Assembly: GCA_030765845.1 (NCBI GenBank)
Contig: JAVCDJ010000064.1
Location: 1 to 33,984, forward strand
Direction of reading: 5' to 3'
From: Candidatus Stygibacter australis
Lineage (GTDB): Bacteria; Cloacimonadota; Cloacimonadia; Cloacimonadales; TCS61
Length of the DNA: 33,984 nt
A program made the translations under genes and the position numbers. Shown piece by piece: positions 2,530 to 30,076 of this stretch (the stretch's first letter is position 1; every line of letters begins with the position of its first letter). The notes under the pieces are model-generated. The model did no database searches, had not been told where the DNA came from, and was given only the letters and a program-made list of their open reading frames with translations.

Positions 2530-2537
2530 TGTTTGTT

Positions 2538-4748: not shown

Positions 4749-4810
4749 GATCAGGATTATTGGGATAAAACGTCGGGATCAGGATTTACAGGATGAAGAG
4801 GATTAAGAGG
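4749..4810. repeat. Second copy of the GLUG intergenic repeat
   Basis: This matches the 2450-2529 spacer (GATCAGGATTATTGGGATAA ... ACAGGATGAAGAGGATTAAG) but lacks a short internal stretch near TTCGGGATT. It ends directly in the AAGAGGAG ribosome-binding site of GLUG3. Confidence 0.8.
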
Positions 4811-4818
4811 AGTTTATT

Positions 4819-7653: not shown

Positions 7654-8054
7654 AGGGTAATTTAGGAAAGAAGAAGAAGATTTTTTAGCCACGAATAGCC
7701 TTCTTTTTTATACGGCTCATCAAGAAGCTCCGAAATGACACCAGCCTTCAATACAATTACGGCTTGGCAAGCGAAAAAATGTAATGTAATGTAAGATTTT
7801 TCACCACAGAGGCACAGAGAACACAGAGAAATGTAATGTAAGAGTTTGAGCAACGAATAGCTTTCATGCATTACAGCTCATCAAGACAATTACGAACAAA
7901 ACGAACTGAAGAAGTAAAATATGCATTTTTTCTTATCCGTGTTAATCCGTGTAATCCGCCTGCCGTACCGTAGCTTTATGCGAAGGATGGTGGCTCAGTG
8001 TTCTATTCTTACTCTTTACTCCTCACTTCTCACTCTTCACTTCTCACTTAGTTA
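7654..8054. other. Repeat-rich intergenic region between convergent genes
   Basis: No convincing gene is present. The spacer holds two related segments, at about 7687-7723 (CCACGAATAGCCTTC ... GGCTCATCAAGA) and 7850-7886 (CAACGAATAGCTTTC ... AGCTCATCAAGA). It also holds copy 2 of the ACGAACAAAACGAAC repeat (7887-7916), AATGTAATGTAATGTAAG runs, CACAGAGGCACAGAGAACACAGAG, ATCCGTGTTAATCCGTGTAA, and CTCACTTCTC repeats at about 8013-8049. These resemble the low-complexity repeats upstream of 962. No clear intrinsic terminator is seen. Confidence 0.7.
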
Positions 8055-12169: not shown

Positions 12170-12314
12170 TTAGGATAGGCCAATTAAATTATTCACCGAT
12201 GTGGAATAATTTATGCTACATAAAAAAGTGGAGATTACTGAAAGAGGAATAGCAACATGAATAAATTATTTTAGTAATTAGAAGAAAATATTAAATCTGA
12301 ATATGGAGGAAATA

Positions 12315-15300
12315 ATGACTCGTAAAGTCATGTTATTATCATTTTTACTGCTTGTATTTTCACTACAGGGAGTTTGGCATAATGTCAACGAAACTAACAG
12401 TGAGACTTTCACCTGTAACCAATTAGAACAAGGTATCACGCAGATCACATTCCAGCTTGACGGTTTCGAACTCGAATCTTTATCAAGATCTGGTGAATCT
12501 TTTCAGAAGATCTCACATCCTGAAGCAGAAAGTATGCTGCTTACAGGTATGCCCGATCTTCCCCAGTTCACCACCCTGATAGCTGTTCCTACTGATGGAG
12601 AGATAAATATTGATTACACTTTTACATTCGGTGAAACTCTTTCAGATATTTCCATCTATCCTACTCAGGAACCTGAATATGAGTTTCTGGAAAATAAAGA
12701 TATATTTTCACGTAATAGTGAATATTATAATAATGGAACCCTTTTCCCAGAGGAGAAAGTGATAACGGCAAGTCCGGCTGTAATGCGGGACTTGCGGATT
12801 ATCCCGGTCAGCTTTTGTCCCTTCACTTATAATGCTGCTACCCGTGAACTATCCATAGCAAGCGAGATCCAGGTTCAGATAAGCACAACGGGAACTCAGC
12901 ATCTCATGCGAAACACTATCTCCAGAGCTTTTGAACCGATTTATAAAAGTATGATCCTGAATTATGAAGATTTTATCGGCAGACCGGAATATCAGCAGCC
13001 AACCCTTGTTTTTATCATAAGTGATCAGGAAGATGCCCTGGAAACTCTGGAATATTTAAAAGACTGGAAACGCCAAAAAGGGTATAATGTAGTAGTTGCT
13101 ACTACATCAGAAACAGGAACGACCACTAATTCAATCAAAGCCTGGATCCAGGACGCCTACGACAACTGGGAAAATCCACCTGAATATATCTGTTTCTGTG
13201 GCGATGCTAATGGTTCTTACGAACTTGCTACCTATGGTAATGGCGATCATCCCTATACTGAACTGGCTGGAAATGATTTTCTAGAAGATGTTATTTCCGG
13301 AAGACTCAGTTTTGGTGATATCGGCACATTCCAGGTAATGGTCGCAAAAATACTGAATTATGAAAAAGAACCCTTTATGGGTAGTACGGATTGGTATGAG
13401 CATGCTGTTTTAGCTGGAGATACAGGTATTTCCGGACCATCCATGCAGTTTACCTGTGAATCAATAAAAGAAATGATGCTTGATTTTCCTGATAATTATA
13501 ATACAAGTGCCAGCTTCACTGAGATCTATGGCGGCAGCTTTCCTTCCTCTATCAATGCAGCCCTTAATAACGGTGTAAGTTATATGGTATATCGCGGCTG
13601 GATGGGTATGAGCGGATGGAGTCCCGGTAATCAAACAAATAGTTTCATGCTCCCTTTTGCTACCATACTTACCTGTGGCACCGGAGGCTGGACAGGAGGG
13701 ACTTCTGACAGTGAAACTTTTTCTCGGATGGGTACTGTCACTAATCCTACAGGAGCTATAGGCACTGTGGGCACGGCAACTGCCGGTACACACAGCTGCT
13801 TTAATAATGCCTTGACCTTAGGAATATATGGTGGTATATTCCGGGATAGTATTTTCACAATGGGAGGAGCTACTACCCGGGGAAAATATTATCTTTATGA
13901 AACCTTCCCTCAAAATCCTTCCGGATTTGTGGAAACTTACCATAATTGGGCAAATCTTATTGGAGAACCAAGTCTCTGCCTGTGGACTGATGTGCCGGAA
14001 GAGATGCATATAACTTATGATTCTCAGGTTGCACTGGGGACTAATTACTTATCAGTAAACGTCAAAGATGCCAGCAATACCCCGATCCCCGGAGCCTGGG
14101 TAACGATCTCTAATGAATCAGAAAGCTTTTTTACTACCGGTTTTTGCTCAGAAACTGGTGATATACTTCTTGATATCGCGAGTAATGAAATTGGTGAATA
14201 TGATATCGTGGTTACTTATCATGACTTTATCCCTCATTTAGGTACTATTGAAGTCCAGGCAGCTGACCAGTATGTGGATGTTACAGGAATGCAATTTGAT
14301 GACAGCGCTGGAAATGGTGATGGGATATTAAATGCCGGAGAAACCGTAGTAATAATACCCACACTCACAAATCTGGGTTCTCAACCGGTTAATGATGTAA
14401 ATGTAACCTGCCAGTTAATTCACAATTATCTTAGCTTAAATACCACGGAAATGTCTTATGGTAATATCGCTTCTGGAGCTACTGCTGAACCTGCTGCAGG
14501 AATTGAAATGACAATTTCTCCCGCTGCCTGTGGTGGAATGCAGGGTTTACTTGTCCTTAATGTATCTGATGATAATGGTAATAACTGGACTAACTGGTAT
14601 TATCTTAATATCACTGGAGTAAATCTCTTTGCCTCTGAATATGAGGTAGTGGGAGGTGGTATCCTGGAACCCACAATAAGCTCCGAAATTTTCTTTACTC
14701 TGGAAAATATGGGACAATTGAGTTCTACTGAACTTACTGCTGAATTGACCTGCCAGAACCCTCGCCTGATCATTACTGACGGCCTGGCAGTGATTGATCC
14801 TATAGCTTCCGGAGGAAGTGGAAATAATAGTAATGATGTATTTGGGGTAACTCCCTCAGCGACAATAATCCCTGGCTCACAATTGACTCTGGAAATCCAT
14901 CTTTCCAATGCTGAAGGATTCAGCCAGACCTGTCATATCAATGTGCCCGTAGGTGAAGTAGAAGTCACTGATCCCTTTGGTCCGGATGAATATGGCTACT
15001 GGTGTTATGATGATGGAGATCTTGGGTATGAGAACTGCCCTGAATATAACTGGATAGAAATTGACCCTGACCTGGGTGGAAATGGTACTATAATCAACCT
15101 TAATGATAGTGGAGATAATGGAGACAGCGAAGTGATTGCTTTGCCAGATGAATTTACTTTCTCTTTCTATGGAGTACAATATGACCAGATCACTGTCTGC
15201 TCAAATGGCTTTATAGCACCCGGTGAACATGATGCACCAAATTTCATGAACCATCCCCTGCCCGGACCTGAAGGTCCCAGCCCCATGATAGCAGCTTTCT

Positions 15301-17060
15301 GGGATGATCTGGCAGTTAATAGCGGAAATGTATGCTATTATTATGATGATATCGAACATATCTACGTTGTGGAATGGAGTGAATGTAATAATGGAGATAC
15401 CGGAGCAGATGAGACTTTCCAGATTATCCTCTATGATCCTTTATATTACCAGACAATGACCGATGACTCCCTGATAAAGATACAGTATATGGACATTACT
15501 AATAACAACGCGGGTTCATATCCTGCTAACCATGGACAATACTGCACTGTGGGTCTGGAAAGTGAAGGGGCTCAGATGGGCATGACTTATACATTCAATA
15601 ACACCTATCCAGATGCTTGTAAAGAACTGGGAAATGAAATGGCTATCCTCTTTTCACCACCTCAGTATCCTGAATTTGGACCCTATCTGGAGATGGTTGC
15701 TTATGACTATATCTCAGGTGATGATCAATTCATTGAAGCTGGTGAGACAGTAGATCTATCTATCACAATAGCCAATCAGGGTGCAGAAGCAGCCTCGGAT
15801 GTTAGTGTACAAATGGAAATTGACGATCCCTGGTTCACCTTGATTGATGATGAAGCCACTATTGATATCCTTCCAGCAATTGGAACTATTGAGCTGATCG
15901 ATGAATTCAGCTTTTCCGTAGATGAGCAGGTTCCTGATGATTATAATTTCACTGTTACCTTTAATATGACGACTGTAGATAATGCCTGGTTCTCAAGCAT
16001 CTCTCTCACTGCCCACTGGATAAATGCCTTCCTGGTTGATCAGGACAGCATTGATGTAGTTCTGGGACTGAACCTTACCACTGAGCGTACTTTTAATCTT
16101 TCCAATACTAGTGCCAATCCGGTGGATTATTACCTTAGAATGGATGATCAGCAACCGACAGGCAGAGATATATCCGGCTCTTTTGTGCATTGCGATTCCA
16201 CAGTATTTCATCCAGGAGAAGAGCAGCTCTGGCGTTTTATTGTGCATAATGGCTCCTCCTCAAATGAATGGGTAAATGATGTCTGGCTAACCTTCCCTCC
16301 GGGTGTAAGCGTTGTTAGCGCAACTAATGCCTATGGCGGAACCGGAGGATATATGGAATGGGACGGAACTACCGGCGATGATGTTACTGTGAACTGGCAT
16401 GGCGAAGAACCGAATGGCTGGGGAGTTCTTAGAGATGATGAAACTGCTGGCTGGAATGTTGTTGTTCAGATAAGTGAAAATTTTGCCAGTGATATACAGG
16501 TAGGCTGGGAAGTCGGCGGTGATGGTTATGGCAACCCTCCTCACAGTGTTATTGGTGAACTGAATTTCAATTTTCCTATTCAATGGATCAACCTGAACAC
16601 ATCTTATGGAAGTCTTGAACCAGGTGAAAGTGATGACATCATTATCTATTACGATACTAATGATATGGAAACAGGTGAATATGACTGCTCCATCAATATC
16701 CTTTCTGATAGCTGGTTCTCTAAAATTGTAAATACACACCTCACTGTGGTCACAGTGGATGAAGATGATAATGATATTCATAAGCTAACACAGCTTCTGG
16801 GTAACTATCCGAACCCATTTAATCCCAGTACAGCTATCAAATTCAATCTGGCGGAAGATTCGTTTACAGAGCTTAATATTTATAATTCCAAAGGGCAAAA
16901 GGTATGCACTCTGCTTCAGGAACAGGTTTCAGCAGGTACTCATGAAGTAAACTGGAATGGCAGAAATGATAATAACAGATCTGTCAGCAGCGGGGTTTAT
17001 TATCTGAAGCTTAAAACCGGTGATGCAAACCTGACCCAGAAACTTCTGCTTCTTAAATAA
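12315..17060 (+). CDS. Gingipain-like peptidase C25 family protein, multidomain, possibly inactive
   Basis: A 1581-residue exported protein. ATG 12315 is preferred over ATG 12303 because GGAGG lies immediately upstream of it, inside the longer version. A signal peptide (1-19) is followed by a propeptide-like region (about 20-225) and a C25 caspase-like fold (about 229-555: PTLVFIISDQEDALETLEYL, KGYNVVVATT, YICFCGD, ILTCGTGGW, HNWANLIGEPSLCLWTD). Cys454 in LTCGTGGW fits the catalytic position. The expected GHG histidine motif is replaced by Y426-RGWMGMSGW. Next come a carboxypeptidase-regulatory-like domain (about 570-650), CARDB-like Ig repeats starting NGDGILNAGE, a nidogen-like or anchor domain (about 892-1115), more Ig-like domains, and the sorting domain (about 1494-1581). 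If active, the family cleaves proteins outside the cell. A strong terminator follows. The sorting-domain DNA is nearly duplicated at the end of the gene finishing at 22770. Confidence 0.88.
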   Translation: MTRKVMLLSFLLLVFSLQGVWHNVNETNSETFTCNQLEQGITQITFQLDGFELESLSRSGESFQKISHPEAESMLLTGMPDLPQFTTLIAVPTDGEINIDYTFTFGETLSDISIYPTQEPEYEFLENKDIFSRNSEYYNNGTLFPEEKVITASPAVMRDLRIIPVSFCPFTYNAATRELSIASEIQVQISTTGTQHLMRNTISRAFEPIYKSMILNYEDFIGRPEYQQPTLVFIISDQEDALETLEYLKDWKRQKGYNVVVATTSETGTTTNSIKAWIQDAYDNWENPPEYICFCGDANGSYELATYGNGDHPYTELAGNDFLEDVISGRLSFGDIGTFQVMVAKILNYEKEPFMGSTDWYEHAVLAGDTGISGPSMQFTCESIKEMMLDFPDNYNTSASFTEIYGGSFPSSINAALNNGVSYMVYRGWMGMSGWSPGNQTNSFMLPFATILTCGTGGWTGGTSDSETFSRMGTVTNPTGAIGTVGTATAGTHSCFNNALTLGIYGGIFRDSIFTMGGATTRGKYYLYETFPQNPSGFVETYHNWANLIGEPSLCLWTDVPEEMHITYDSQVALGTNYLSVNVKDASNTPIPGAWVTISNESESFFTTGFCSETGDILLDIASNEIGEYDIVVTYHDFIPHLGTIEVQAADQYVDVTGMQFDDSAGNGDGILNAGETVVIIPTLTNLGSQPVNDVNVTCQLIHNYLSLNTTEMSYGNIASGATAEPAAGIEMTISPAACGGMQGLLVLNVSDDNGNNWTNWYYLNITGVNLFASEYEVVGGGILEPTISSEIFFTLENMGQLSSTELTAELTCQNPRLIITDGLAVIDPIASGGSGNNSNDVFGVTPSATIIPGSQLTLEIHLSNAEGFSQTCHINVPVGEVEVTDPFGPDEYGYWCYDDGDLGYENCPEYNWIEIDPDLGGNGTIINLNDSGDNGDSEVIALPDEFTFSFYGVQYDQITVCSNGFIAPGEHDAPNFMNHPLPGPEGPSPMIAAFWDDLAVNSGNVCYYYDDIEHIYVVEWSECNNGDTGADETFQIILYDPLYYQTMTDDSLIKIQYMDITNNNAGSYPANHGQYCTVGLESEGAQMGMTYTFNNTYPDACKELGNEMAILFSPPQYPEFGPYLEMVAYDYISGDDQFIEAGETVDLSITIANQGAEAASDVSVQMEIDDPWFTLIDDEATIDILPAIGTIELIDEFSFSVDEQVPDDYNFTVTFNMTTVDNAWFSSISLTAHWINAFLVDQDSIDVVLGLNLTTERTFNLSNTSANPVDYYLRMDDQQPTGRDISGSFVHCDSTVFHPGEEQLWRFIVHNGSSSNEWVNDVWLTFPPGVSVVSATNAYGGTGGYMEWDGTTGDDVTVNWHGEEPNGWGVLRDDETAGWNVVVQISENFASDIQVGWEVGGDGYGNPPHSVIGELNFNFPIQWINLNTSYGSLEPGESDDIIIYYDTNDMETGEYDCSINILSDSWFSKIVNTHLTVVTVDEDDNDIHKLTQLLGNYPNPFNPSTAIKFNLAEDSFTELNIYNSKGQKVCTLLQEQVSAGTHEVNWNGRNDNNRSVSSGVYYLKLKTGDANLTQKLLLLK

Positions 17061-17091
17061 ATTTTAGTCAAAGACTGATATAACAATAACC

Positions 17092-17129
17092 GGAGAGATA
17101 TTCTACTTGAATTTCTCTCCTTTTTTTTT
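17092..17129 (+). terminator. Intrinsic terminator of the C25-like gene
   Basis: GGAGAGA (17092-17098) pairs with TCTCTCC (17114-17120), with further ATTC/GAAT pairing inside, followed by nine T residues. It lies 31 bases after the stop codon. It is homologous to the terminator at 22800-22828. Confidence 0.93.
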
Positions 17130-17484
17130 CGTTAATGATGATGACTATATAAAAAGAGAAGCTTATTAACCACAGAGTACTTAGAGGATTATTTTTTTTA
17201 ACATGAGCTTTTTTTATTCCGAAGTGTACCAGTTCGGTCTGTAATTAAGACGAGATTATTGTGTAAACTGGGCAGTTATATTCCGATCTTTGGGGATATA
17301 TTTAGAAATATTGAATTTAAGAAACTATTTAATAAAAAAGCTGATCATCTAATTATCCAGTTATGCTAAGGTTCTTTATAAATGTCAGATATGAATTTCA
17401 GGTAAACATTTTTACTCTGCATAACCCTTTATAACAATATCTACATAAATATAGAGAATGTCTTATACAATAAATTTATATTTT

Positions 17485-17686
17485 CTGGCACCCCCCTGTT
17501 TTGAACACGACATTATCCCATAAAATGCTATTAAATATATAGTTACTTATCAATTTAATTTGAAATTATTCTTACCCTGAAAGGGTTGTACTATACTAGC
17601 CATGGGTTTCAACCCATGGCTAGTATTGTAATGCCCATTCAGGGCAATTAATGTCAGCTTCTATTTTAATTCCGGGGGGATGCCAG
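17485..17686. mobile_element. MITE-like insertion with inverted ends and 10-bp direct repeats
   Basis: The element begins CTGGCACCCCCC (17485-17496) and ends GGGGGGATGCCAG (17674-17686). These ends are inverted copies apart from one inserted base. The direct repeat TTTATATTTT flanks it at 17475-17484 and 17687-17696; two bases of boundary are ambiguous because CT follows both copies. The paralogous spacer at about 22996-23012 reads AATAAATTATGATTCCTATTGAC with no insert, which is the empty site. The element is 202 bp and encodes no transposase, so it would have to be mobilised in trans. It contains the nested palindrome 17575-17645. The family is not recognised; a target duplication of about 10 bp is compatible with IS4-type transposases, but this is only a suggestion. 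Confidence 0.75.
17575..17645. repeat. Large nested palindrome inside the inserted element
   Basis: The core ACTAGCCATGGGTT (17595-17608) and AACCCATGGCTAGT (17611-17624) form a perfect 14-bp stem around a 2-base turn. Outer arms CCCTGAAAGGG (17575-17585) and GCCCATTCAGGGC (17633-17645) pair imperfectly, so the 71-base segment could extrude a cruciform or fold as an RNA hairpin. No T tract follows. Confidence 0.9.
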
Positions 17687-17700
17687 TTTATATTTTCTAT

Positions 17701-17717
17701 TGACAGTAAAACTGTCA
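17701..17717. promoter_or_regulatory. Operator-like inverted repeat
   Basis: TGACAGT (17701-17707) and ACTGTCA (17711-17717) are perfect inverted repeats separated by AAA. The first arm overlaps a TTGACA box at 17700-17705. The paralogous site at 23013-23029 keeps the structure with one mismatch (ACTGCCA). This would suit a dimeric repressor or activator; no candidate regulator is identified. Confidence 0.4.
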
Positions 17718-17763
17718 TTGACTTAGTTTTGTGATTAATGAATGAACTTCAATAAAAGAGGAA

Positions 17764-17892
17764 ATGATGACTGAGACAAATAATGGACATAAAATGGTGT
17801 TAACTCTTTCTCTCTCTGTATTTAGGCTCTTCAAGCACAAGAAAGAAACGGCCAGAATTTATTATCTCCTGAGGAAATTAAAGTTTGGCTGA
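17764..17892 (+). CDS. Possible 42-residue ORF with CT-repeat tract
   Basis: ATG 17764 (or ATG 17767, 5 bases after AGAGG) opens a frame reading MMTETNNGHKMVLTLSLSVF, then a basic tail RLFKHKKETARIYYLLRKLK, to TGA 17890-17892. In the second spacer the homologous frame (23076-23192) has a 6-base in-frame insertion. Its CT run is two bases longer, which shifts the frame after LTLSLSL and gives a different, shorter tail. The good ribosome-binding site argues for translation; the frame change and lack of a known family argue against a conserved protein. A leader peptide or a remnant are alternatives. Confidence 0.22.
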   Translation: MMTETNNGHKMVLTLSLSVFRLFKHKKETARIYYLLRKLKFG

Positions 17893-18044
17893 GCAGGCGA
17901 TGTCATCATGGGACATGGAATTAGTTAGTAGAATAAGTGATTTCGGTATCGAAAATAGAAAGTTGCCTAAATACTGAAACTGACCTCAGCAAGATAGGCA
18001 ACCAACATAAACACACACAAGCTAAAATAATATAGGAGTACATA

Positions 18045-20387
18045 ATGTACAAGAAATATTTTGTTTTATTGGCAATTGTGATATTGCCTTTGATGATTTT
18101 TGGCACAGACTGGTATGTGGATTGTACTGCACAACCAAATGGAAATGGGAGTCAACAAAGTCCGTTTCAGGAAATTGGAGATGCAATTGAAAACCCATTA
18201 ATCAATAATAATGATATAATTATAATATCAGAGGGCGTATATAGTCCAATAGATATAGGGGATATTGGAATTAAAATAACTGCTGAACAAGGTGAAACAG
18301 TTACTATCAATGGAGGTAGAAATAGAAGTTGTATAAGATTTACTTCAGCCTGTACAACGCCAACATTAATTAATGGAATAACTTTGACTAATGGATTTGA
18401 AAATTTGTATTATGGTGGCGGAATTAGCTGCGAATATTCAAGGGAATTAACAATAACTTATTGTTCGATATTAAATTGTGGAGCTCAATCAGGTGGAGGT
18501 ATAGCGGTATATGAATCCATACTCAACTGTTCACATTGCATCATCTCGAATAATGAGACATTTTTTCAGAATGGAGGGGGGATTTATGCTTCACACTCAG
18601 AAGTTAATTTATCATCAGTAAAACTCTCTAATAATTTAGCTTCTAGTAATGGAGGAGGATTATATATTGAACAAAATTCTGAAGATCATAATATTGTTGT
18701 CACTAATACCCTAATTAACAATAATAGGGTAACTGGGGGAAACGGAGGAGCAATTTACATTTATTCCGGTACAGATGAAAACTGTTCTGTTGATCTCAAT
18801 AAATGTACAATTGTTGACAATTACTATGACGAATATGGATTTGGGGGAATAAGTACTTTTGTTTTACCTTTTTGCGAAGTAAACCTGAATATTGCAAATA
18901 GTATCATATATAACAATACCGGGTCACCTCAAATTATACCAGGATATAATGTAACATATTGTGATGTTGAAGGGGAAAATCTATATACGGGTACAGGAAA
19001 TATAAATGATGATCCAGAATTTGTTGATGCCTCCAATGATGATTATTCTCTGGAGTATAACAGTCCCTGCATTGATACTGGTGTTGATAGTAGCACTTAT
19101 GATGATCCTGACGGTTCAAGAGCAGATATGGGCTATCTCTACCATGAACAGGATGTATATAGCTGGCAGTATGGTCCCTTTGAAAGACAGTATCTGTGGA
19201 AGAGTTTCCCAAAATTGCAGATAGATCCCAATCAGGGGGGTGATGTAGATGTTGAGAACTCTCTGCAGTCATGGAATCCGTTGCAGAATGAGTTAGCAAT
19301 AACAATCACATTTGAATTTAACGAACTTGATTACGGAGAATATGATGCTGGTGCAGAAACCTGGGATTGGGATCAAAGCGCAACAATATCAAGTATAAAA
19401 GGATATAAGATGGAAAAAGATAATGCAACTGGCAGTTTATTATTTTCCAGAGGTGTAATATGTGAATCTGATACATATCTGAATACTCATGCCAGTCTTG
19501 AAACCTGGCTGGGATACTTTCTGGAAGACAGTCAATTAGTACTGGATGCATTTCCTTCCAGTGTGCTTGATGACGCTGTACTGGTTAAGACAATGGATTG
19601 GACTATCAGCAGAAATACTACAAATGATCGCTGGTCAGGAGCTACAGGTTCCAGTTATATCAATTATGCTGATTGCGTGGTAATAAAAACGGTAAGTGCT
19701 CATAATGATTTTACCTGGGAAACACCCTCCCGCAGCGGAGAAGCACATTATAGACCAGTAGCAGAACATTTTTCATTTGATGATGATGTTGATTACTTTC
19801 CTATCTATGCAGCATTTGACGTTAACGACATGCCTGACGAAGTAGCAGTTTATATTGATGGTGTCTGCCATGGAGCACAGGTAGTCGAGGATACTCTCTG
19901 CCAGATATGCGCCCATATTCTGGAAGAAGATCCCGGTCAGGAAGTTGAGTTTGCTTTATGGTATGATGGAAGAAGTGGAGTAGAGTTTTTAAACAATTAC
20001 CAGGTTTTTAATGAATCAAAAGATAAATATGAAAGCAAAAAACTGGTAACAGGAATGCCTGGAATCCATTATAAAGTTTTCCTTGAAGGAACCAACGAAA
20101 ATATTGTTACTCCTCAATTCAACCTGAACTGCTATCCTAATCCTTTCAATCCTGAACTGACCATTTACTTCAATCTAAGAGAAACTCAAGATGTTCATCT
20201 GAATATATATAATGTTAGAGGACAAAAAGTGAAAACTCTGGTTAGTGAATTATTCCGTCCTGATGATTATAAAATTGTCTGGAATGGTGATGATAATAGT
20301 GGCAATAGAGTAAGTAGTGGAGTGTATTACATTAGATTGCAGGTCGGTGAAGATATAGTGAACCGTAAAGTAATATTGATGAAGTAA
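18045..20387 (+). CDS. Parallel beta-helix surface protein with sorting domain (gene A)
   Basis: A 780-residue exported protein with a signal peptide (about 1-20, ILPLMIFGTD). Residues 22-340 form a right-handed parallel beta-helix of the pectate-lyase/polymorphic-outer-membrane type (NGNGSQQSPFQEIGDAI; repeated GGGI, GGGIYASHS, NGGGLYI turns). A choice-of-anchor-Q-like segment (SPCIDTGVDSSTYDDPDG) closes it at about 350-370. Residues 385-690 form an unrecognised module with conserved WKSFPK, WLGYFLEDSQ, INYADCVVIKTV, VAVYIDGVCHGAQVVEDTLCQ and LEEDPGQEVEFALWYDGR. The sorting domain (about 695-780) starts NCYPNPFNPELTI. TAGGAGT lies 5 bases before the ATG. It pairs with gene B 60-70 bases downstream. 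Beta-helix proteins bind or cut polysaccharides, but no catalytic residues could be assigned. Confidence 0.88.
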   Translation: MYKKYFVLLAIVILPLMIFGTDWYVDCTAQPNGNGSQQSPFQEIGDAIENPLINNNDIIIISEGVYSPIDIGDIGIKITAEQGETVTINGGRNRSCIRFTSACTTPTLINGITLTNGFENLYYGGGISCEYSRELTITYCSILNCGAQSGGGIAVYESILNCSHCIISNNETFFQNGGGIYASHSEVNLSSVKLSNNLASSNGGGLYIEQNSEDHNIVVTNTLINNNRVTGGNGGAIYIYSGTDENCSVDLNKCTIVDNYYDEYGFGGISTFVLPFCEVNLNIANSIIYNNTGSPQIIPGYNVTYCDVEGENLYTGTGNINDDPEFVDASNDDYSLEYNSPCIDTGVDSSTYDDPDGSRADMGYLYHEQDVYSWQYGPFERQYLWKSFPKLQIDPNQGGDVDVENSLQSWNPLQNELAITITFEFNELDYGEYDAGAETWDWDQSATISSIKGYKMEKDNATGSLLFSRGVICESDTYLNTHASLETWLGYFLEDSQLVLDAFPSSVLDDAVLVKTMDWTISRNTTNDRWSGATGSSYINYADCVVIKTVSAHNDFTWETPSRSGEAHYRPVAEHFSFDDDVDYFPIYAAFDVNDMPDEVAVYIDGVCHGAQVVEDTLCQICAHILEEDPGQEVEFALWYDGRSGVEFLNNYQVFNESKDKYESKKLVTGMPGIHYKVFLEGTNENIVTPQFNLNCYPNPFNPELTIYFNLRETQDVHLNIYNVRGQKVKTLVSELFRPDDYKIVWNGDDNSGNRVSSGVYYIRLQVGEDIVNRKVILMK

Positions 20388-20403
20388 TTTCTCGTGAGAC
20401 GAT

Positions 20404-20437
20404 CTGGGAACTGCGAGCTTCTGCTCGTAGTTCCCAG
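20404..20437. repeat. Palindromic element between genes A and B
   Basis: CTGGGAACT (20404-20412) pairs with AGTTCCCAG (20429-20437), followed inward by a G-T pair and CGAG/CTCG, around a 6-base loop. It is followed by AAAATAAGG, not a T tract, so a mobile palindromic repeat or processing hairpin is more likely than a terminator. A decayed relative (CTGGGAACAGCGAG ... CTGCTCGTAGT) occurs at 28083-28110. Gene B starts 17 bases downstream. Confidence 0.85.
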
Positions 20438-20454
20438 AAAATAAGGATGTGGTT

Positions 20455-22770
20455 ATGAATAAGTATTTGATTTTAGTTAGTATGATTTTTTTATTTGGAG
20501 TATTGCAGGGAACTACAATAATTGTTGATATAGAGGGCAATGGAGATTATACTTCAATTCAGGAGGGGATAAATGTCAGTGTGGATGGAGATATAGTGCT
20601 TGTCTATCCTGGTCGGTATTTTGAAAATATTGATTTCATAGGAAAAACTATAACTGTGGCAAGCTTGGAAATGACGACTGGTAATAGGGATTATATTGAC
20701 TCAACAATAATTGATGGTAATCAGACAAGTTGCTGTGTATATGTAAATAACAATGAGGGACAAGGAACAACATTAAGAGGATTTACAATAACAAACGGCA
20801 TTGGACATTTGATTACTGTAAGTAGAAGGGGAGGTGGTATTTATACTAGGGATGCATGCTTGGATATTATTAACTGTATTGTTAAAAATAATAATGCATA
20901 TAATGGAGGAGGTATTTCGGTCTCGGGAACCTATCTATATTTAGAAGGGTGTACAATCAGGAATAACAGAGCTTTAAAGCGTGGTGGAGGTTTAATATGT
21001 GGTCGCTTATACAGTTCAATCGAATTTTCTGATGACAACAGATGTAATATATATGATAATTTTGCTCCCTGGGGTCAGGATATTTGCAATATATTTGACG
21101 AAACAGTGGGAATGGTAACTGACATAATAGTAGATACCTTTACAGTTTCGGAGCCTCTGGGATTTGAGTTATATCAGGGTGGCAGCGATTATATACAGAA
21201 TTATTCCGGTGGTATGACTTTGGATATTCTTCAGGCAAAATATGAGAAAATAGAAGCAGACCTTTATGTAGCTCCCTGGGGTAATGATGAAAACAGTGGG
21301 CTTAGCGAAGCTGAAGCTCTGTATTCGATAAATAAAGCTCTGCAATTAATTTCGGCTGATAATGACCATCCCAGAACAGTACATCTAACGAATGGACTAT
21401 ATGCACCCTGGTATGAAAGCCAGACATTTCCCCTTGTAATGAGAAGTTATGTTTCGTTAATAGGAGAATCAGAGGAAAATACTATTATTGATCTTCAAAA
21501 TGGAAATTGCGGATTTATAGTTGATCTTTTTGGAGCACTTGGATATGAAGTCAAAAACATGACAGTTCAGAACGGTTATCTACCTGAAGACAATTCTGCC
21601 TTTTTTGGACATCTAAGCTATATTAGAAATGCAGAAGATTCTGCTGAACCATTACTATTTGAAAATATTACATTCAGAGATAATAGTTATCGTTTAGCTC
21701 TAACATATAATGAAGTAAATTTGACAGTAAGAGATGTTAAATTTATTGGTAATCATGGTGAATATAGTAATCAGGGAAATACTTTTTTAAGGACAAGTTT
21801 AATATCGGATAGTGTAAGAACTACATTAATAGAAAATTGTATCTTTCAAAATAATAACAGTGGAACTATCATTTTTTGGAGTGGGTCTAATATACCTCAG
21901 GGTTCTTTAACATGCAGTGTAGTAAATTGCCTATTTTACCAAAATGAATTTGAAAATGTACATACGCCAGAATTTCCAGCAGGCATGTCAATTGTCGCTA
22001 TTTTTACTATGAACTTAAATATTATAAATTGTACATTTACTGGTAATCAGTATTATGGTCCTACTATTGGCGATGCTCCGGTTAAAGTAACAGATGAAGT
22101 TTATGCGACTTTTGCAAATAATATATTTTATGATAATGATACCACACACTCCATTATTGCTCACTCGTCTGGTAACGCATTTCCGGTGGTTGTTGTACAT
22201 CACAATATCATTGAGAATGGTTTAGACGGAATTTTGGATGAAGGCAATTTTGTTATCTGGGATGATGAAACGAACTGGGATGTTGATCCGTTGTTTTTAG
22301 GAGAAGGAGATTACCCTAATACTTTGCAGGAAGGCTCACCAGCTATAGATATGGGGACTTTCAATCTCCCGGAAGGAGTGGAATTGCCGGAATATGATCT
22401 GGCAGGTAATCCGCGAACTATTGGCAATGGAATTGATCTGGGAGCTTACGAGTGGCAGTATCCGGATTCCAATGATGAAAATGAGATAACTGAGATTGAT
22501 GAAAATTTAATTATATACCCCAATCCTTTCAATCCCAGCACCGTGATCAAATTCAATCTGGCGGAAGATTCGTTTGCAGAGCTTAATATCTATAATTCCA
22601 AGGGGCAAAAGGTATGCACACTGCTTCAGGAGCAGGTCTCAGCCGGAACTCATGAAGTAAACTGGAACGGCAGAAATGATAATAACCGACCCGTCAGCAG
22701 CGGAGTTTATTATCTGAAACTGAAAACCAGTGATGCTAACCTGACCCAAAAGCTCCTGCTCCTGAAATAA
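20455..22770 (+). CDS. Parallel beta-helix surface protein, chimeric sorting domain (gene B)
   Basis: An exported protein of 771 residues from ATG 20455 (AAGGA lies 7-8 bases upstream; GTG 20449 is less likely). Signal peptide ends GVLQGTT. A first beta-helix (about 20-215) begins DIEGNGDYTSIQEGINVSVDGD and has RRGGGIY and GGGISVSG turns. A second begins DLYVAPWGNDENSGLSEAEA and extends to about 600. A choice-of-anchor-Q motif (SPAIDMG ... GIDLGAYEW) lies at about 640-675. The sorting domain (about 687-771) is nearly identical in DNA and protein to that of the C25-like protein and unlike that of its paralogue B'. Its terminator is also a copy of the C25 terminator. The body pairs with B' throughout, so this gene is a recombinant. 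Surface binding or polysaccharide interaction is inferred. Confidence 0.88.
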   Translation: MNKYLILVSMIFLFGVLQGTTIIVDIEGNGDYTSIQEGINVSVDGDIVLVYPGRYFENIDFIGKTITVASLEMTTGNRDYIDSTIIDGNQTSCCVYVNNNEGQGTTLRGFTITNGIGHLITVSRRGGGIYTRDACLDIINCIVKNNNAYNGGGISVSGTYLYLEGCTIRNNRALKRGGGLICGRLYSSIEFSDDNRCNIYDNFAPWGQDICNIFDETVGMVTDIIVDTFTVSEPLGFELYQGGSDYIQNYSGGMTLDILQAKYEKIEADLYVAPWGNDENSGLSEAEALYSINKALQLISADNDHPRTVHLTNGLYAPWYESQTFPLVMRSYVSLIGESEENTIIDLQNGNCGFIVDLFGALGYEVKNMTVQNGYLPEDNSAFFGHLSYIRNAEDSAEPLLFENITFRDNSYRLALTYNEVNLTVRDVKFIGNHGEYSNQGNTFLRTSLISDSVRTTLIENCIFQNNNSGTIIFWSGSNIPQGSLTCSVVNCLFYQNEFENVHTPEFPAGMSIVAIFTMNLNIINCTFTGNQYYGPTIGDAPVKVTDEVYATFANNIFYDNDTTHSIIAHSSGNAFPVVVVHHNIIENGLDGILDEGNFVIWDDETNWDVDPLFLGEGDYPNTLQEGSPAIDMGTFNLPEGVELPEYDLAGNPRTIGNGIDLGAYEWQYPDSNDENEITEIDENLIIYPNPFNPSTVIKFNLAEDSFAELNIYNSKGQKVCTLLQEQVSAGTHEVNWNGRNDNNRPVSSGVYYLKLKTSDANLTQKLLLLK

Positions 22771-22799
22771 ATTAATTTAAGACTGATATAACAATAACC

Positions 22800-22836
22800 G
22801 GAGAGATATTCCACCAGAATATCTCTCCTTATTTTT
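22800..22836 (+). terminator. Intrinsic terminator after gene B
   Basis: GGAGAGATATTC (22800-22811) pairs perfectly with GAATATCTCTCC (22817-22828) around a 5-base loop, followed by TTATTTTTG. It is paralogous to the terminator at 17092 but has the longer perfect stem. Confidence 0.92.
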
Positions 22837-23344
22837 GTTTAACGTTAGCTGTTTTTATTCCGAAGTACAACAGTTTCTGACTGAAATTAATAAGAGATTC
22901 CTTAAAATGCCAGATATGAATTCCTGGTAAACATTTTTACTCTATATAACCCATTATAACTATATTCATATAAATGAAGTTAATGTGTTATACAATAAAT
23001 TATGATTCCTATTGACAGTAAAACTGCCATTGACTTAGTTTTGTGATTAATGAATGAACTTCAATAAAAGAGGAAATGATGACTGAGACTGAAACAACTA
23101 ATGAACATAAAATGGTGTTAACTCTCTCTCTCTCTCTGTATTTAGGCTCTTCAAGCATAAGAAAGAAACGACCGGAATTTATTATCTCCTGAGGAAATTC
23201 AAGTTTGGCTGAGCACATTGTCCGCACAGTTAACCATAAAGCCGCTCTGCCAGCCGAAACCGACAAAGCAGCCAATACAAAGCAATGATAAGTTAACCAA
23301 AACCAGTATTATGTCAAGCTGGATGATCTTTTTAGGAGGAAAAA
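22837..23344. other. Spacer upstream of gene A' (duplication copy 2)
   Basis: Homologous to the first spacer over ATTCCGAAGT, CCAGATATGAATT...GGTAAACATTTTTACTCT, TTATACAATAAA and the conserved block at 23009-23215. It lacks the 202-bp insertion (empty site about 22996-23012). The CT run in the block is 16 bases instead of 14. After 23215 the sequence is unlike copy 1 and ends in a strong TAGGAGGA ribosome-binding site for gene A'. No independent gene is supported. Confidence 0.7.
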
Positions 23345-25687
23345 ATGAAGAATAAAATTTATATATTGATACTGATATTATTACCAGTATATTTATTATC
23401 AACTACTATTTACGTTGATGCGAGTGCAGACCCGAATGGAAATGGAACAATAAACTTTCCCTATCAGACAATTAATGAAGCCATTGATGATCTGGTTGAT
23501 GGAGATACTATAGATATTGCAGCAGGAACTTACACCGAAAACTTAGACTTTGAAGATTATTATTTCACAATGATAGGGGAAGATCCTACAACCACAATTA
23601 TTGATGGGAATAATAATCCCGCATCTGTTATAGATCTATCCGAAAGTTCAAGTGGTCTTACGGAAATAAACAATCTAACTATCTGTAACGGTAGCGACAG
23701 TGGTATTAACATATTTAATAGGAATGTTAATATTGTAAACTGTATTATTAGTAATAATCAAAATTCAGTTAATCCAGGAGGTGGAATTAAATGTTATGAT
23801 AATACACAATTAGTTGATTATTGCCTTAATATAATAGATTGTATTTTTGATAGCAACGTGACGTCAGTATGGGGGGGAGGGCTGTATTCTACCGGTAGTA
23901 TCACAAATATATATAATTGTAAATTTCATGATAATATTGCAGATGATCCTAATAACAATAATATTGTTCATGAAAAAGGGGGAGCTATTTGTTATCTTGC
24001 AGTAGATGGTGTTATTGAGAATACTCTAATTTATGATAACTATGCTACTCATCAAGGGGGCGCTGTATATCTTATTGGGCAGGAAGTTATACTATTTAAT
24101 ATAGATTTTAAATTTTGTACTATAGTTTATAATAATGCATCAGATGGTATAGGGAGTATAGGAGGCGTACATTCTACACCAGGAAGTTCTTTCGATGTAT
24201 CTTCAAGTATATTCTGGGGAAACAGCGGAAATTGCCAAGTTACACCTGGACACACAATCAATTACTCATGTATCGAAGGTGGTTACTATACAGGTACAGG
24301 TATTATAGAAGATGATCCAGAATTTGTTGATGCAGCTAATGATGATTATACTCTTGAATACTACAGTCCCTGCATTGATAAGGGTAATCCGTCATCAGCT
24401 TACTACGATCCTGATGGGTCTTATGCAGATATGGGATGTTACTACCATGAACAGGATGTTTATACCTGGACTTATGGTGGCTCAGTTAGAACTTATATCT
24501 GGAAAAGCTTCCCTAAATTTTTTTTTAGGGATTCTAATTCTAATACCGGCCAAGATATAGAGCCTGAATATGCATTTGAGACATGGACTCCAATTCCAGA
24601 AGGACTTGATGTATGGTATGAAAATGAAATCACAGAATATATATCAGGAGAAACAGATCCGACATGGTCATGGGATCCCGATAATGATGTTTGCAGTATA
24701 GAAGGTTACAAATTACGTAGAAATAACGGCGCAAACTGCCTTTTATTTTCCAGAGGATTATTATGTGAAAGAGAAACAGATCTAACAGTGACTTCTGCAA
24801 ATGCAGCCTGGCTGGGCTATTTTCTAAAAGATAGTCAAAATGTTTTGGATGCTATACCTGATACGGTTATCAGGGATGCTGTGTTGGTTAAAACGCAGGA
24901 TTGGAGTATTAGTAGAAATTCTACAAGTGATCCATGGTCAGGCACACCACGTTCGTGTAAAATCAACTATGCTGATTGCGTAATTCTCAAAACCGTTAAT
25001 TCTCATACTTTTGAATGGGAAACTCCCTCGCGTGATTCGGAACCGGAATATCGTCCAGTTGCTGAGCATTTTGCTTTTAATGACGATATTGATTATATTC
25101 CAATATATGCTGAGTTTGATGAAAACGACATACCAGACGAAGTTGCCGTTTATGTGGATGATGTCTGCCGGGGAGCGCAAGTAGTAGAAGATACTATTTG
25201 CCAGATTTGTACTCATATACTGGAAGAAGATCTCGGTCAGGAGATAGAGTTCGCTTTCTGGTATGAAGGAAGAAACTCGGAAAAAAGATGCAATAGTTAT
25301 CTGGTATATGATCAGGAAACTGGTGAATATATATCCGGAAGCCTAATTACCGGAATGCAGGGAATTCATTATGAGGTATCATTTAAAGACAATTATGAAA
25401 ACGTTGTTCCTCCTGAATATGACCTTAATTGCTATCCTAATCCCTTTAATCCGGAACTGACAATATCCTTCAATCTGGAAGAAACACAGGAAGTAAAGCT
25501 GAATATTTACAATGTCCGCGGTCAGAAAGTTAAGACTCTGGTTAGTGAGTTATTCCGTCCTGATGATTATAATGTTGTCTGGATGGGTGATGATAATTTC
25601 GGCAATAAAGTGAGCAGTGGTGTATATTACATCAGATTGCAGGTTGGTGATGATATTGTAAACCGGAAAGTGATATTGATGAAGTGA
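23345..25687 (+). CDS. Parallel beta-helix surface protein with sorting domain (gene A')
   Basis: A 780-residue paralogue of gene A. Signal peptide about 1-19 (VYLLSTT). A beta-helix (about 20-340; DGDTIDIAAGTYTENL, PGGGIKC, WGGGLYS, KGGAIC, QGGAVYL) ends in an anchor-Q-like segment (SPCIDKGNPSSAYYDPDG). Residues 386-690 repeat the unrecognised module of A (IWKSFPK, WLGYFLKDSQ, VAVYVDDVCRGAQVVEDTICQ). The sorting domain is about 695-780. The C-terminal half is very close to A, whereas the N-terminal helix is only recognisably similar, so the solenoid has diverged much faster than the rest. AGGAGG precedes the ATG by 6 bases. Gene B' follows after about 90 bases that include a different hairpin. 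Confidence 0.88.
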   Translation: MKNKIYILILILLPVYLLSTTIYVDASADPNGNGTINFPYQTINEAIDDLVDGDTIDIAAGTYTENLDFEDYYFTMIGEDPTTTIIDGNNNPASVIDLSESSSGLTEINNLTICNGSDSGINIFNRNVNIVNCIISNNQNSVNPGGGIKCYDNTQLVDYCLNIIDCIFDSNVTSVWGGGLYSTGSITNIYNCKFHDNIADDPNNNNIVHEKGGAICYLAVDGVIENTLIYDNYATHQGGAVYLIGQEVILFNIDFKFCTIVYNNASDGIGSIGGVHSTPGSSFDVSSSIFWGNSGNCQVTPGHTINYSCIEGGYYTGTGIIEDDPEFVDAANDDYTLEYYSPCIDKGNPSSAYYDPDGSYADMGCYYHEQDVYTWTYGGSVRTYIWKSFPKFFFRDSNSNTGQDIEPEYAFETWTPIPEGLDVWYENEITEYISGETDPTWSWDPDNDVCSIEGYKLRRNNGANCLLFSRGLLCERETDLTVTSANAAWLGYFLKDSQNVLDAIPDTVIRDAVLVKTQDWSISRNSTSDPWSGTPRSCKINYADCVILKTVNSHTFEWETPSRDSEPEYRPVAEHFAFNDDIDYIPIYAEFDENDIPDEVAVYVDDVCRGAQVVEDTICQICTHILEEDLGQEIEFAFWYEGRNSEKRCNSYLVYDQETGEYISGSLITGMQGIHYEVSFKDNYENVVPPEYDLNCYPNPFNPELTISFNLEETQEVKLNIYNVRGQKVKTLVSELFRPDDYNVVWMGDDNFGNKVSSGVYYIRLQVGDDIVNRKVILMK

Positions 25688-25732
25688 TTTTTTAACGTGA
25701 ACAGTGACCAGTGATTGGTGATTGTAAAAACG

Positions 25733-25756
25733 CCTGACGTCCTGAGGGACGTCAGG
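25733..25756. repeat. Palindromic element between genes A' and B'
   Basis: CCTGACGTCC (25733-25742) and GGACGTCAGG (25747-25756) form a perfect 10-bp stem with loop TGAG. It occupies the position equivalent to the unrelated hairpin 20404-20437 in the first unit. No T tract follows, and B' starts 21 bases downstream. Confidence 0.88.
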
Positions 25757-25777
25757 TATATATAATGGGATGTGGAT

Positions 25778-28078
25778 ATGAAGAAGTATTTAGTTTTGCT
25801 TATTGGATTGCTTTGTATTGGATTTTTGCAGGGAATTACAATAGAAGTTGATATTGAAGGTAATGGTGATTATACATTGATTCAGGCGGGAATTGATGCC
25901 AGCTCTGATGGTGATATTGTGCTGGTGTATCCGGGCAGATATTTTGAGAATGTAAATTTAAACAATAAAAATATCACATTATGCAGCCTGGAGATGACCA
26001 CTGGAAATAGCGAATATATTGCAAGTACGATAATTGATGGAAATGAGACAAGTAGCTGTATTGCAGTATGTAATTACGAAAATAATGTTGTAATTAGAGG
26101 GTTTACTATCACTAATGGTATTGGGTGTCAAATTGGAACTCGAAGAAGAGGAGGAGGGATCTATTCATTAAATACTACTTATGCAGTAGAAAACTGTTTA
26201 ATAGAATATAATAATGCAGAACAAGGAGGGGGGATATATATACAAGGTTCCCAGGTTAGCCTTTCAGGTAGCACAATCAGAAATAATAGTGTAACAAAAA
26301 GGGGGGGTGGAATTGCAAGTTATTTTTTATATTCATCAATTTCTTTTTCTTCAGAAAATAGATGTAATATCTACAATAATTATGGTCCCCTTGGAAGAGA
26401 TATATTTAATTGTACACAAGATGGAGATGGAGTGGAAACTGATGTTATTCTTGATACAATGACAGTATTTGAACCTTTTGGATATGAGTTTTTCCAGGGA
26501 GATCCTAATAGTTTTTCTCAGGATTATTCAAATAGTGAATTTGAAATGCTTAACGCAAAACTGGATCGTCTTGATTCAGACCTGTTTGTATCACCTGATG
26601 GAAATAACAGCAACAGTGGTATATCTGCAGATGACCCCTTACAATCTATAGACAGAGCGATGCAGTTAATTATTGCCGATGAGGAAGATCCCAGGACAAT
26701 ACATCTGGCAGATGGTATATACTCGCAACAATTCAACAATCAGCAGTATCCTGTTACGATGAGAAGTTATGTATCAATAACGGGGGAATCACAGGAGAAT
26801 ACAATAATTGATCTGAGTGATGCCTTATGTGGCTTCATTATGGATTTTGTTAGTGAATTAGGGTATGAGATCAGTAATATGACAGTCAGAAATGGTTATG
26901 CAGATGATAATGTATCATTGTATAACAGACTTTTTGTTTTACATAATACTCAAGGTGTAACAAATCCCGCAATATTTGAAAATTTATTAATAGAAAATAA
27001 TGAATATAATATGATCTATGTTATTGATGATTTGAATATGATACTAAGGAATGTCACTTTTAATAGTAACTTTTATCTCAATTCTTCCTGCGGAATTAGA
27101 TATAGCAAAGAACATTTTGCCGACCGTTATTTATTATTGGAAAACTGCAAATTCAGTAACAATAACAGTGCAGAAATATATCCTTCGGGGCTTATGAATA
27201 ACGAGCAAGCAAGCCTATATATGGATATAGTCAACTGTGAATTTACAGATAACGATCTTGATATAAATTTTAATCCAATGTATCCAAGTTCTGTTAATTT
27301 TTTTGGGGTTTATAATGTTGATCTTAATATAATCAATTGTACATTTTCTAATAACTGTTTTGATGATCCCGTGGGTGGTGCCCCCGTAAGATTTTGCCAA
27401 GGAATGGAAGTTAATATTTGCAACAGTATATTTTATGGTAATGAGACATCACATTCCATAATTGTACAAGGCTCAGCCAACTCTACCCCACCCGAAGTTA
27501 CTATCCAAAACAGCATATTAGAGAATGGACAAAGCGGCATATTAGTTATGGAACCTGTTAATATAACATATTGTAGTGAATCTGTCTGGGATAATGATCC
27601 TTTGTTTTGGGCAGAAGGTGATTACCCGTATGCATTACAAGACGATTCCCCGGCAATTGATAGGGGTACATTAGAATTACCGGAGGGAATTTCCTTGCCG
27701 TTAACTGATCTGGCTGGTAACCCGCGTGTATTGGGAAACGGAATAGATATTGGTGCTTATGAAAATAATCCCTACAGCAATCCGATTAATGAAGATGCAC
27801 TGGAATATTCGAATCTTGTAATTTATCCTAATCCGGTGAGAGTTAATCAAGGAAGAGGATCAGTTATAATCAATTATCCTGTCAGCAGTGATGATGCCGA
27901 TTATAAACTGAGCATCTACAACATAAAAGGACAAAGACTTCGTTCATTTAAAATTTGCGAAGCAAACTGGGATTTGCGTGATGATGCTGGTGATATTGTG
28001 AGCAGCGGAGTATATTTTCTTCGTGTATCCAGAGATGGAGAATTTATTGAGCAAGGCAAATTGACAGTGATCAAGTAA
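25778..28078 (+). CDS. Parallel beta-helix surface protein with its own sorting domain (gene B')
   Basis: An exported protein of 766 residues from ATG 25778; GTG 25772 is in frame, but ATG matches the paralogue. Signal peptide ends GFLQGIT. Two beta-helix regions as in B: DIEGNGDYTLIQAGIDASSDGD ... RRRGGGIYS ... GGGIASYF, then DLFVSPDGNNSNSGISADDP onward. The choice-of-anchor-Q motif SPAIDRG ... GIDIGAYEN lies near 630-665. The C-terminal sorting domain (about 680-766) begins VIYPNPVRVNQGRG, lacks the NPFNP form, and is unrelated in detail to that of B; it ends SGVYFLRVSRDGE ... KLTVIK. This is probably the ancestral B ending. The ribosome-binding site is weak (GGGA), suggesting translation coupled to A'. 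Confidence 0.88.
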   Translation: MKKYLVLLIGLLCIGFLQGITIEVDIEGNGDYTLIQAGIDASSDGDIVLVYPGRYFENVNLNNKNITLCSLEMTTGNSEYIASTIIDGNETSSCIAVCNYENNVVIRGFTITNGIGCQIGTRRRGGGIYSLNTTYAVENCLIEYNNAEQGGGIYIQGSQVSLSGSTIRNNSVTKRGGGIASYFLYSSISFSSENRCNIYNNYGPLGRDIFNCTQDGDGVETDVILDTMTVFEPFGYEFFQGDPNSFSQDYSNSEFEMLNAKLDRLDSDLFVSPDGNNSNSGISADDPLQSIDRAMQLIIADEEDPRTIHLADGIYSQQFNNQQYPVTMRSYVSITGESQENTIIDLSDALCGFIMDFVSELGYEISNMTVRNGYADDNVSLYNRLFVLHNTQGVTNPAIFENLLIENNEYNMIYVIDDLNMILRNVTFNSNFYLNSSCGIRYSKEHFADRYLLLENCKFSNNNSAEIYPSGLMNNEQASLYMDIVNCEFTDNDLDINFNPMYPSSVNFFGVYNVDLNIINCTFSNNCFDDPVGGAPVRFCQGMEVNICNSIFYGNETSHSIIVQGSANSTPPEVTIQNSILENGQSGILVMEPVNITYCSESVWDNDPLFWAEGDYPYALQDDSPAIDRGTLELPEGISLPLTDLAGNPRVLGNGIDIGAYENNPYSNPINEDALEYSNLVIYPNPVRVNQGRGSVIINYPVSSDDADYKLSIYNIKGQRLRSFKICEANWDLRDDAGDIVSSGVYFLRVSRDGEFIEQGKLTVIK

Positions 28079-29029: not shown

Positions 29030-30076
29030 ATGAGCTTGAAGCGGATTTCACTTACTCAATACGTAAAAGCGGCTGGCTGAGCTGCGAAACTAAGTCCGGG
29101 TGACTTACATAAATTGATGAATGGTCTGGAATTACCGTCAAATGAGCATTTGCTGCTGGGATCAGAATCCAGTGATGATGCAGGAATATATCAGATCAAT
29201 GATGAGCAGGCACTGGTGCAGACTCTGGATATTATCACTCCAGTAGTTGATGATCCATTTCTCTTTGGTCAGATTGCTGCTGCCAACAGTATGAGTGATG
29301 TGTGGGCTATGGGCGGTAAAATGCTGACTGCCATGAACTTTGTAGCTTATGATAATTGCCATTTAACGCTGGAAATCCTGCGGGAAATCCTTGCTGGCGG
29401 TGCTGACAAAGTGCGTGAAGCAGGAGGAACTATACTGGGTGGTCACACAATAGAAGACATTGAGATGAAATATGGTCTCAGCGTGACGGGAATTGTCCAT
29501 CCCCGGAAATATCTTCGCAATAATACCTGCCGGCCTGGAGATGTACTGATAATCACAAAGCCCCTGGGGATGGGAGTGATATCCACTTCGATCAAGGGCG
29601 AAATGGTTGATGAAGCCACAATTCAGGAAGCAGGTTTCCAGATGGCATTTTTGAATAAATATGCCAGTGAAGCTGCCCTGCGGGTGGGAGTTCATGCGAT
29701 GACGGATGTAACCGGATTTGGCTTGATGGGGCATCTGAATGAGATGACCAATACGAATACTTCCATTGAGCTGAATTATCATAAAATCCCCATTATTAAA
29801 GCCGCCATTGATCTGGCAGAGTATGGTTTATTCCCGGCAGGAGCACATAGAAATGAGGAGTATTACAGACAATTCTGTAAGATCGAGATTAATATTCCTG
29901 ACAGCCATAAGATGCTGCTTTTTGATCCCCAAACTTCTGGTGGGCTGCTGATCAGCGTATCAGAAAGCAAAGCAGAAAAACTGGTGCAGGAACTGATAGA
30001 TGCAGGGATTGAGTCAGCAACTATTATCGGTCAGGTTATCCCTAAAAGCGGATCTAATGTAATACTCAGGAGCTGA
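29030..30076 (+). CDS. selD: Selenide, water dikinase (selenophosphate synthetase), selenocysteine-containing
   Basis: A protein of 348 residues when in-frame TGA 29078-29080 is read as selenocysteine. The enzyme makes selenophosphate from selenide and ATP, the selenium donor for Sec-tRNA. The N-terminus ISLTQYVKAAG-U17-AAKLSPGDL matches the SelD active-site loop (Cys or Sec at 17, Lys at 20 in the E. coli numbering), and downstream motifs are typical (DDAGIY, VQTLDIITPVVDDPFLFGQIAAANSMSDVWAMGG, GGHTIED, DVTGFGLMGHL, DPQTSGGLL). Without recoding the gene would be misread as starting at TTG 29114 or ATG 29117 and would lack the active site. AGGAGG lies only 1 base before ATG 29030 but 7 before TTG 29036, so translation may begin at TTG (346 residues, Sec15). 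It is followed by the GH31 gene after one base. Confidence 0.95.
29078..29080 (+). other. In-frame UGA selenocysteine codon of selD
   Basis: TGA is in the frame that continues through the complete SelD protein and sits exactly where the family has catalytic Cys or Sec (G-U-A-A-K). No other stop occurs between the start and 30074. Confidence 0.93.
29091..29107 (+). promoter_or_regulatory. Putative bacterial SECIS stem-loop in selD
   Basis: TAAGTC (29091-29096) pairs with GACTTA (29102-29107) around the loop CGGGT. The loop begins 17 bases after the UGA and carries G at its second position. Known bacterial SECIS elements have a small apical loop with an early G about 16-37 bases after UGA, so the geometry fits. 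Binding by SelB is inferred. Confidence 0.65.

Follow-up and report, generated by a model that had tools for sequence, protein, structure and literature searches.

A gene for peptidase C25 and the four genes that follow it on the same strand, A, B, A' and B', make up the locus analysed here (Table 1). It lies in contig C64 of a draft metagenome-assembled genome (MAG) of Candidatus Stygibacter australis (278 contigs, 3.8 Mb); the whole stretch of 33,984 nucleotides that was analysed is referred to as the window. The initial annotation, which had read the upstream sequence as a C25 3' end, was correct, as the gene encodes a peptidase C25 with a type IX secretion system (T9SS) sorting domain. CTD denotes this sorting domain (T9SS type A), A-B the two-gene cassette, and pS and pN the synonymous and nonsynonymous differences. 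C25, A, B and A' passed the cut-offs of both TIGR04183 and Por_Secre_tail, and B' passed that of TIGR04183 only; all five products are thus predicted T9SS type A cargo by the cut-off for the C-terminal domain. The structure model of A' had a mean pLDDT of 39.9 and was confident only in parts of the N-terminal beta-helix. In the A proteins, the first 300 residues (encoded at 18045-18945 and 23345-24245) are very variable, with about 30-37% identity to all other copies found, while the middle part and the CTD are conserved.

Table 1. Features of the C25 locus, with positions in the window
Feature	Position	Strand	Evidence
C25: peptidase C25 (gingipain-like), propeptide and T9SS type A sorting domain	12303..17060	+	PF01364 1.3e-41, PF08126 5e-29, TIGR04183 7e-10
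CTD copy 1, YPNP codon to stop	16806..17060	+	87-88% DNA identity to 22516-22770; codons 11-84 pS 0.36, pN 0.018
Terminator-like hairpin, copy 1	17092..17120	+	fold z -3.9
Extra sequence in spacer 1, ~60 bp	17129..17188	.	no counterpart in copy 2 (alignment)
Extra sequence in spacer 1, ~111 bp	17258..17368	.	no counterpart in copy 2 (alignment)
MITE- or REPIN-like insert in spacer 1	17477..17687	.	~20 further partial genome matches; inner hairpin
Spacer block copy 1	17688..17895	+	91% to 23000-23215
Gene A: beta-helix N-terminus, A-specific domain, CTD	18045..20387	+	sister of C125 A (100/100)
Gene B: beta-helix surface protein, chimeric	20449..22770	+	sister of C125 B in its body (100/100); match to C125 ends at 22451
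Linker of B	22452..22515	+	84% to B-like gene on C222 vs 53% to C125
CTD copy 2: C25-type CTD on B	22516..22770	+	junction at YPNP codons; differs from CTD of all other own-genome cassette B genes examined
Terminator-like hairpin, copy 2	22800..22828	+	12 pairs; fold z -6.6
Spacer block copy 2, leader ORF 23076-23192	23000..23215	+	91% to copy 1; similarity ends at 23215
Gene A'	23345..25687	+	not sister of A, AU p 4.9e-7
Gene B', own NPVR-type cassette CTD kept (27824-28078)	25772..28078	+	not sister of B, AU p 5.6e-5

Beside the locus, a selD gene (29030-30076) has its apparent start at ATG 29030 and an in-frame TGA (29078-29080) at the usual Sec/Cys site (...KAAG-U-AAKLSPG...). This points to a probable selenoprotein, for which the listed TTG start would be an artefact. 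The protein showed 80% identity to SelD of a Candidatus Cloacimonadota MAG, isolate Tobar13.5m-G52.

The co-linear repeat and its spacers

Self-comparison of the window revealed four direct repeats in the same order, 16806-17128 with 22516-22836 (87%, E 6e-111), 17189-17257 with 22829-22899 (82%), 17369-17476 with 22895-23001 (83%) and 17688-17895 with 23000-23215 (91%, E 1e-82), and these are followed by the similarity of A to A' and then of B to B'. Between the copies, the CTD and terminator are offset by 5710 and gene A by 5300, the values that the initial annotation had given. The second copy (22516-23215) is compact and matches the first along its full length, and the 410-bp change of offset arises mostly because three extra pieces of about 60, 111 and 211 bp sit in spacer 1, which bears out the earlier attribution to an insertion there. 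The similarity at the level of the spacer halts at 17895 and 23215, respectively, without extending into A or A'. The CTD, the terminator and the spacer are the only closely alike parts of the repeat (82-91% at the DNA level). Genome-wide, no other copy of the spacer block was detected except a 37-bp piece on contig C151 and short CTD pieces.

The 211-bp insert is a dispersed repeat element with copies in relatives as well. Its inner hairpin (17572-17647) has a folding energy of -48.7 kcal/mol (z -9.6), and imperfect terminal inverted repeats, TGGCACCCCCC and GGGGGGATGCCA, and a possible, imperfect TTTATATTTTCT target duplication were read by eye from the sequence. By these features it resembles a MITE or a REPIN. 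The first copy of the spacer block contains a candidate TTG-N21-TAGTTTTG promoter, a ribosome site, a 40-bp box and a leader ORF (17764-17892) with a TC tract. Promoter and leader roles for the spacer are plausible, and the expression signals would then travel with the CTD. The two leader ORFs, 17764-17892 and 23076-23192, differ in their C-terminal frame via the length of the TC tract, and the tract could conceivably serve as a slippage switch. C151 likewise has a TC tract and the 40-bp box upstream of its A gene. The box was considered as a widespread recombination site and rejected, since the genome holds just three copies, all 5' of A genes. A known RNA element in the spacer was likewise rejected; the Rfam cut-off was reached in the window by one tRNA only, and the weak matches in the spacer sit on a palindrome and fall below the cut-off.

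Kinship of the gene bodies and the sorting-domain swap in gene B

The proteins of A and A' are 52% identical and those of B and B' 48%, and the synonymous sites of both pairs are near saturation (pS 0.62 and 0.66). The A-B cassette repeats in this genome on contigs C125, C13, C55, C160, C238, C162 and others, and also in relatives. The window A-B matched that of C125 with 78% DNA identity over 3.5 kb, ending at 22451 just before the CTD of B. In the trees, A and B each grouped with their C125 counterparts with full support, and forced pairing of A with A' or of B with B' was rejected by the AU test (Table 1). The two-gene cassette is thus widespread, and A/A' and B/B' represent old copies of it that are not sisters. 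A second array, C125-C160-C138, whose contigs are joined by exact 127-nt overlaps, has the order A-B-A-B-A-B, and spacers within a cassette array can be near identical.

The initial annotation had proposed a 5.7-kb tandem duplication with both unit boundaries in sorting-domain DNA. The co-linear adjacent repeats are real and the left edge lies at a CTD, but the repeats do not form one unit with one history, as the bodies are non-sisters and the pS of the CTD is 0.45 against 0.62 and 0.66 for the bodies, and the right edge, 28078, is simply where B' stops, and B and B' differ in their CTDs. A simple tandem duplication that copied CTD-terminator-spacer-A-B once, with A and B then diverging under fast evolution, would account for the gene order and for the co-linear CTD and spacer copies, and a clean example of exactly such an event exists in a relative (described below). 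As a single event it was rejected by the trees and the synonymous divergence, and we regard it as very improbable: the closest kin of A-B is on C125 and not A'-B', which indicates separate arrival of the two sets of bodies; near saturation of synonymous sites in the bodies and not in the CTD has no explanation in fast protein evolution; and the duplication could be rescued only via later replacement of one cassette. A single-copy C25-A-B arrangement was not found in the relatives, where the C25 contig of G001, a genome of the same genus, ends about 140 bp past the gene, and G015, of another genus, has tandem C25 genes and then a different gene.

Among the cassette B genes of this genome that were examined, only the window B has a C25-type CTD; the others carry another type, and B' keeps its NPVR-type CTD. 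The C25 orthologues in G001 (74%) and G015 (63%) bear the C25-type CTD, and therefore the C25 lineage was the source of the shared domain. Thus, gene B acquired the CTD, terminator and spacer of C25, and the shift to C25-type sequence occurs at the YPNP codons. Since the 64-nt linker just before this junction is C222-like and the CTD is C25-type, the C-terminus of B is a mosaic. The layout, a B body fused to the CTD of the upstream gene and a last copy B' with its own CTD, is that expected of CTD-mediated unequal crossover.

The synonymous divergence is not uniform along the repeat. Between C25 and B, the CTD showed a pS of 0.45 as a whole and 0.36 for codons 11-84, where dropping the first ten codons was a choice made after the alignment was seen, and a pN of about 0.02. 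For the window pair alone and the whole CTD, the contrast with the bodies is modest (p 0.012 and 0.0025), and it is clearer without the first ten codons. The pS between C25 and its G001 orthologue was 0.65 for the body and 0.62 for the CTD, which places the CTD copy after the species split. The copy is about as old as the split between the window A-B and the C125 A-B, for which the pS was 0.42 (A) and 0.51 (B). The noncoding spacer has diverged less than the synonymous sites of the CTD, which may reflect selection on the spacer or more than one event.

CTD exchange in another genus and across the genome

Contig C4 of G015 carries a direct repeat, 3864-6275 with 6309-8725 (85% over 2.4 kb), in which the duplicated unit consists of the CTD of an A gene, terminator, spacer and B body. 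The unit begins exactly at the CTD of A and ends 33 nt before the CTD of B1, so that both edges are at CTD starts. B1 bears the CTD of A (91%), B2 retains another type, and the two B bodies show similarity of mostly 70-98%. This is a clean CTD-bounded tandem duplication, as would arise if neighbouring genes underwent unequal crossover at their CTDs. The check in other genomes covered about 0.2 Mb.

The T9SS CTD is common to well over a hundred exported-protein genes. In the 1.65 of 3.8 Mb of the window's genome that the genome-wide test covered, 231 CTD genes were compared, and the median CTD pS over 26,560 pairs was 0.70. A pS below 0.48 with a pN of at most 0.2 was found for 62 pairs, and 30 of the 62 had unrelated or significantly more diverged bodies. 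These discordant pairs group into 15 sets, of which six are local. Distances within 10 kb were found for 13 of the 30, as against 159 of all 26,560 (0.6%), in a count of non-independent pairs. Codon identity at identical residues was 0.68-0.94 in the CTDs, compared with a mean of 0.46 and a 99th percentile of 0.65 for random CTD pairs, and this test agreed for most of the discordant sets tested. On contig C145, nucleotides 71-230 of the CTD (160 nt) are almost identical in two genes with diverged CTD sequence on both sides and unrelated bodies, a conversion-like tract by its pattern. On C76, the stretch shared by two genes spans from the CTD start into the terminator. A scan for direct repeats gave five whose two left edges both coincide with CTD starts; a contig end limits one of these.

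Could selection alone, with no recombination, have kept the CTD and spacer alike? The very low pN of the CTD (0.02) and a spacer less diverged than the CTD synonymous sites would be consistent with this. On the other hand, CTD synonymous sites are saturated between most genes, CTD pairs with a pN below 0.05 have a median pS of 0.31 with none above 0.6, and the other B genes of this genome keep a different CTD, so that the C25-type CTD of B needs a transfer. This explanation was rejected by the CTD type of B and the pS distribution, and we consider it hardly credible. The proposal that sorting domains act as recombination hot spots is thus supported in part, by the CTD swap in B, the G015 duplication and the genome-wide discordance between CTDs and bodies.

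Several further arrangements of CTD sequence were observed. At 962-7653 of the window are three adjacent repeat-rich exported genes, the first two of which have CTD DNA 89% alike, with a pS of 0.22 versus 0.57 for the bodies. On C76 (G000, L171 8953-9221), a third partial CTD copy lies downstream of the two genes with a common CTD and terminator. An ORF of about 101 amino acids on contig C175 of G000 (L088 around 5788) consists of little more than a CTD; this has 91% identity to the CTD of a 1680-aa gene on contig C25, and the ORF is possibly an orphan tag. In G015, many CTD matches lie about 140 nt from a contig end (contig starts of C58, C87, C46, C54, C25, C27 and C39), which suggests that repeats just 3' of CTD genes break the assembly.

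Recombination at the export tag and its meaning

These results suggest that the shared export tag is where these surface-protein arrays recombine. We consider it probable that, in this Cloacimonadota lineage, neighbouring surface-protein genes repeatedly undergo homologous recombination with one another in their CTD-coding DNA, by unequal recombination and conversion. At the window, where recombination was inferred from sequence and the intermediate state was seen in no relative examined, the CTD of an A-B cassette would have recombined with that of C25, joining the B body to the CTD, terminator and promoter-bearing spacer of C25 and giving C25-[CTD-spacer]-A-B-[CTD-spacer]-A'-B'. As A-B and A'-B' are non-sisters, the recombination partners would not have been identical sister copies.

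One route would be unequal crossover of two haplotypes, or with incoming DNA, in which the C25 loci carried A-B in one and A'-B' in the other. A single step would then account for the second CTD-spacer copy and the fusion of B, for cassettes that are not sisters and for the agreement in age between the CTD copy and the A-B/C125 split. The junction also lies at the YPNP codons, like that in G015. It needs, however, turnover of cassettes at the C25 locus, of which none was observed in one draft MAG, and we give this route a substantial chance, somewhat below even. Alternatively, a C25 conversion tract of about 1 kb, from the CTD through the spacer, may have overwritten the CTD and spacer of B in a standing A-B-A'-B' array. 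Tandem A-B arrays exist elsewhere, as on C125-C160-C138, spacers within an array can be near identical, the C145 tract is confined to the CTD, and strain variation would be unnecessary. Nevertheless, the sequences around the right border at 23215 are not similar, with no visible homology to end the tract, and the matching ages would be a coincidence, so that conversion is a possible reading, held more tentatively. Under both the crossover and the conversion readings, the exchange lies in CTD-coding DNA. Strain mixing or assembly chimerism is possible in a fragmented MAG, and duplication by the assembler is unlikely with copies about 88% alike.

Tandem paralogue arrays evolve by unequal crossover and gene conversion, and the fused genes at duplication junctions, homogenised shared segments and diverged bodies seen here are alike; the difference is that the homology here is a short C-terminal export signal of otherwise unrelated genes. 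In Porphyromonas gingivalis, gingipain and haemagglutinin domains rearrange with allelic exchange, and gene conversion has been invoked (PMC5266723). There too, T9SS surface proteins including C25 proteases diversify through recombination of shared domains, but it is adhesin modules that reshuffle and alleles that swap between strains (PMC5266723), whereas here different surface-protein genes exchange the CTD along with terminator and spacer, in a unit delimited by CTD edges. Consecutive large genes of the giant surface-protein cluster of Apilactobacillus kunkeei are also diversified by recombination tracts, some starting near the C-terminal end, although this organism is Gram-positive, without a T9SS CTD, and the tracts were described between strains (PMC12863079). 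In Flavobacterium johnsoniae, proteins with swapped CTDs are still secreted, and the swap can alter where the cargo ends up; CTDs are modular there as well, in laboratory constructs rather than natural rearrangements and in a study centred on type B CTDs (PMC12618676). Searches of the open-access literature, which takes in few subscription journals, gave no description of CTD-coding DNA serving as a site of recombination.

Such exchange would probably keep the signals for export and expression uniform and let the exposed beta-helix bodies multiply and reassort. A broader reading, in which CTD DNA is a shared recombination track of the Cloacimonadota T9SS repertoire that continually moves beta-helix bodies between expression loci in living populations and homogenises tags and terminators, is speculative and at present rather unlikely. 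Should the export tag be the driving homology for duplication, tag swapping and body reassortment, strain genomes and long reads would be expected to show clustered rearrangement breakpoints where CTDs begin. CTD exchanges could also shift the destination of surface proteins, given the CTD swaps in Flavobacterium (PMC12618676). Cloacimonadota genomes carry very large sets of T9SS cargo genes, and an export tag acting in this way would explain how these sets grow and stay exportable.
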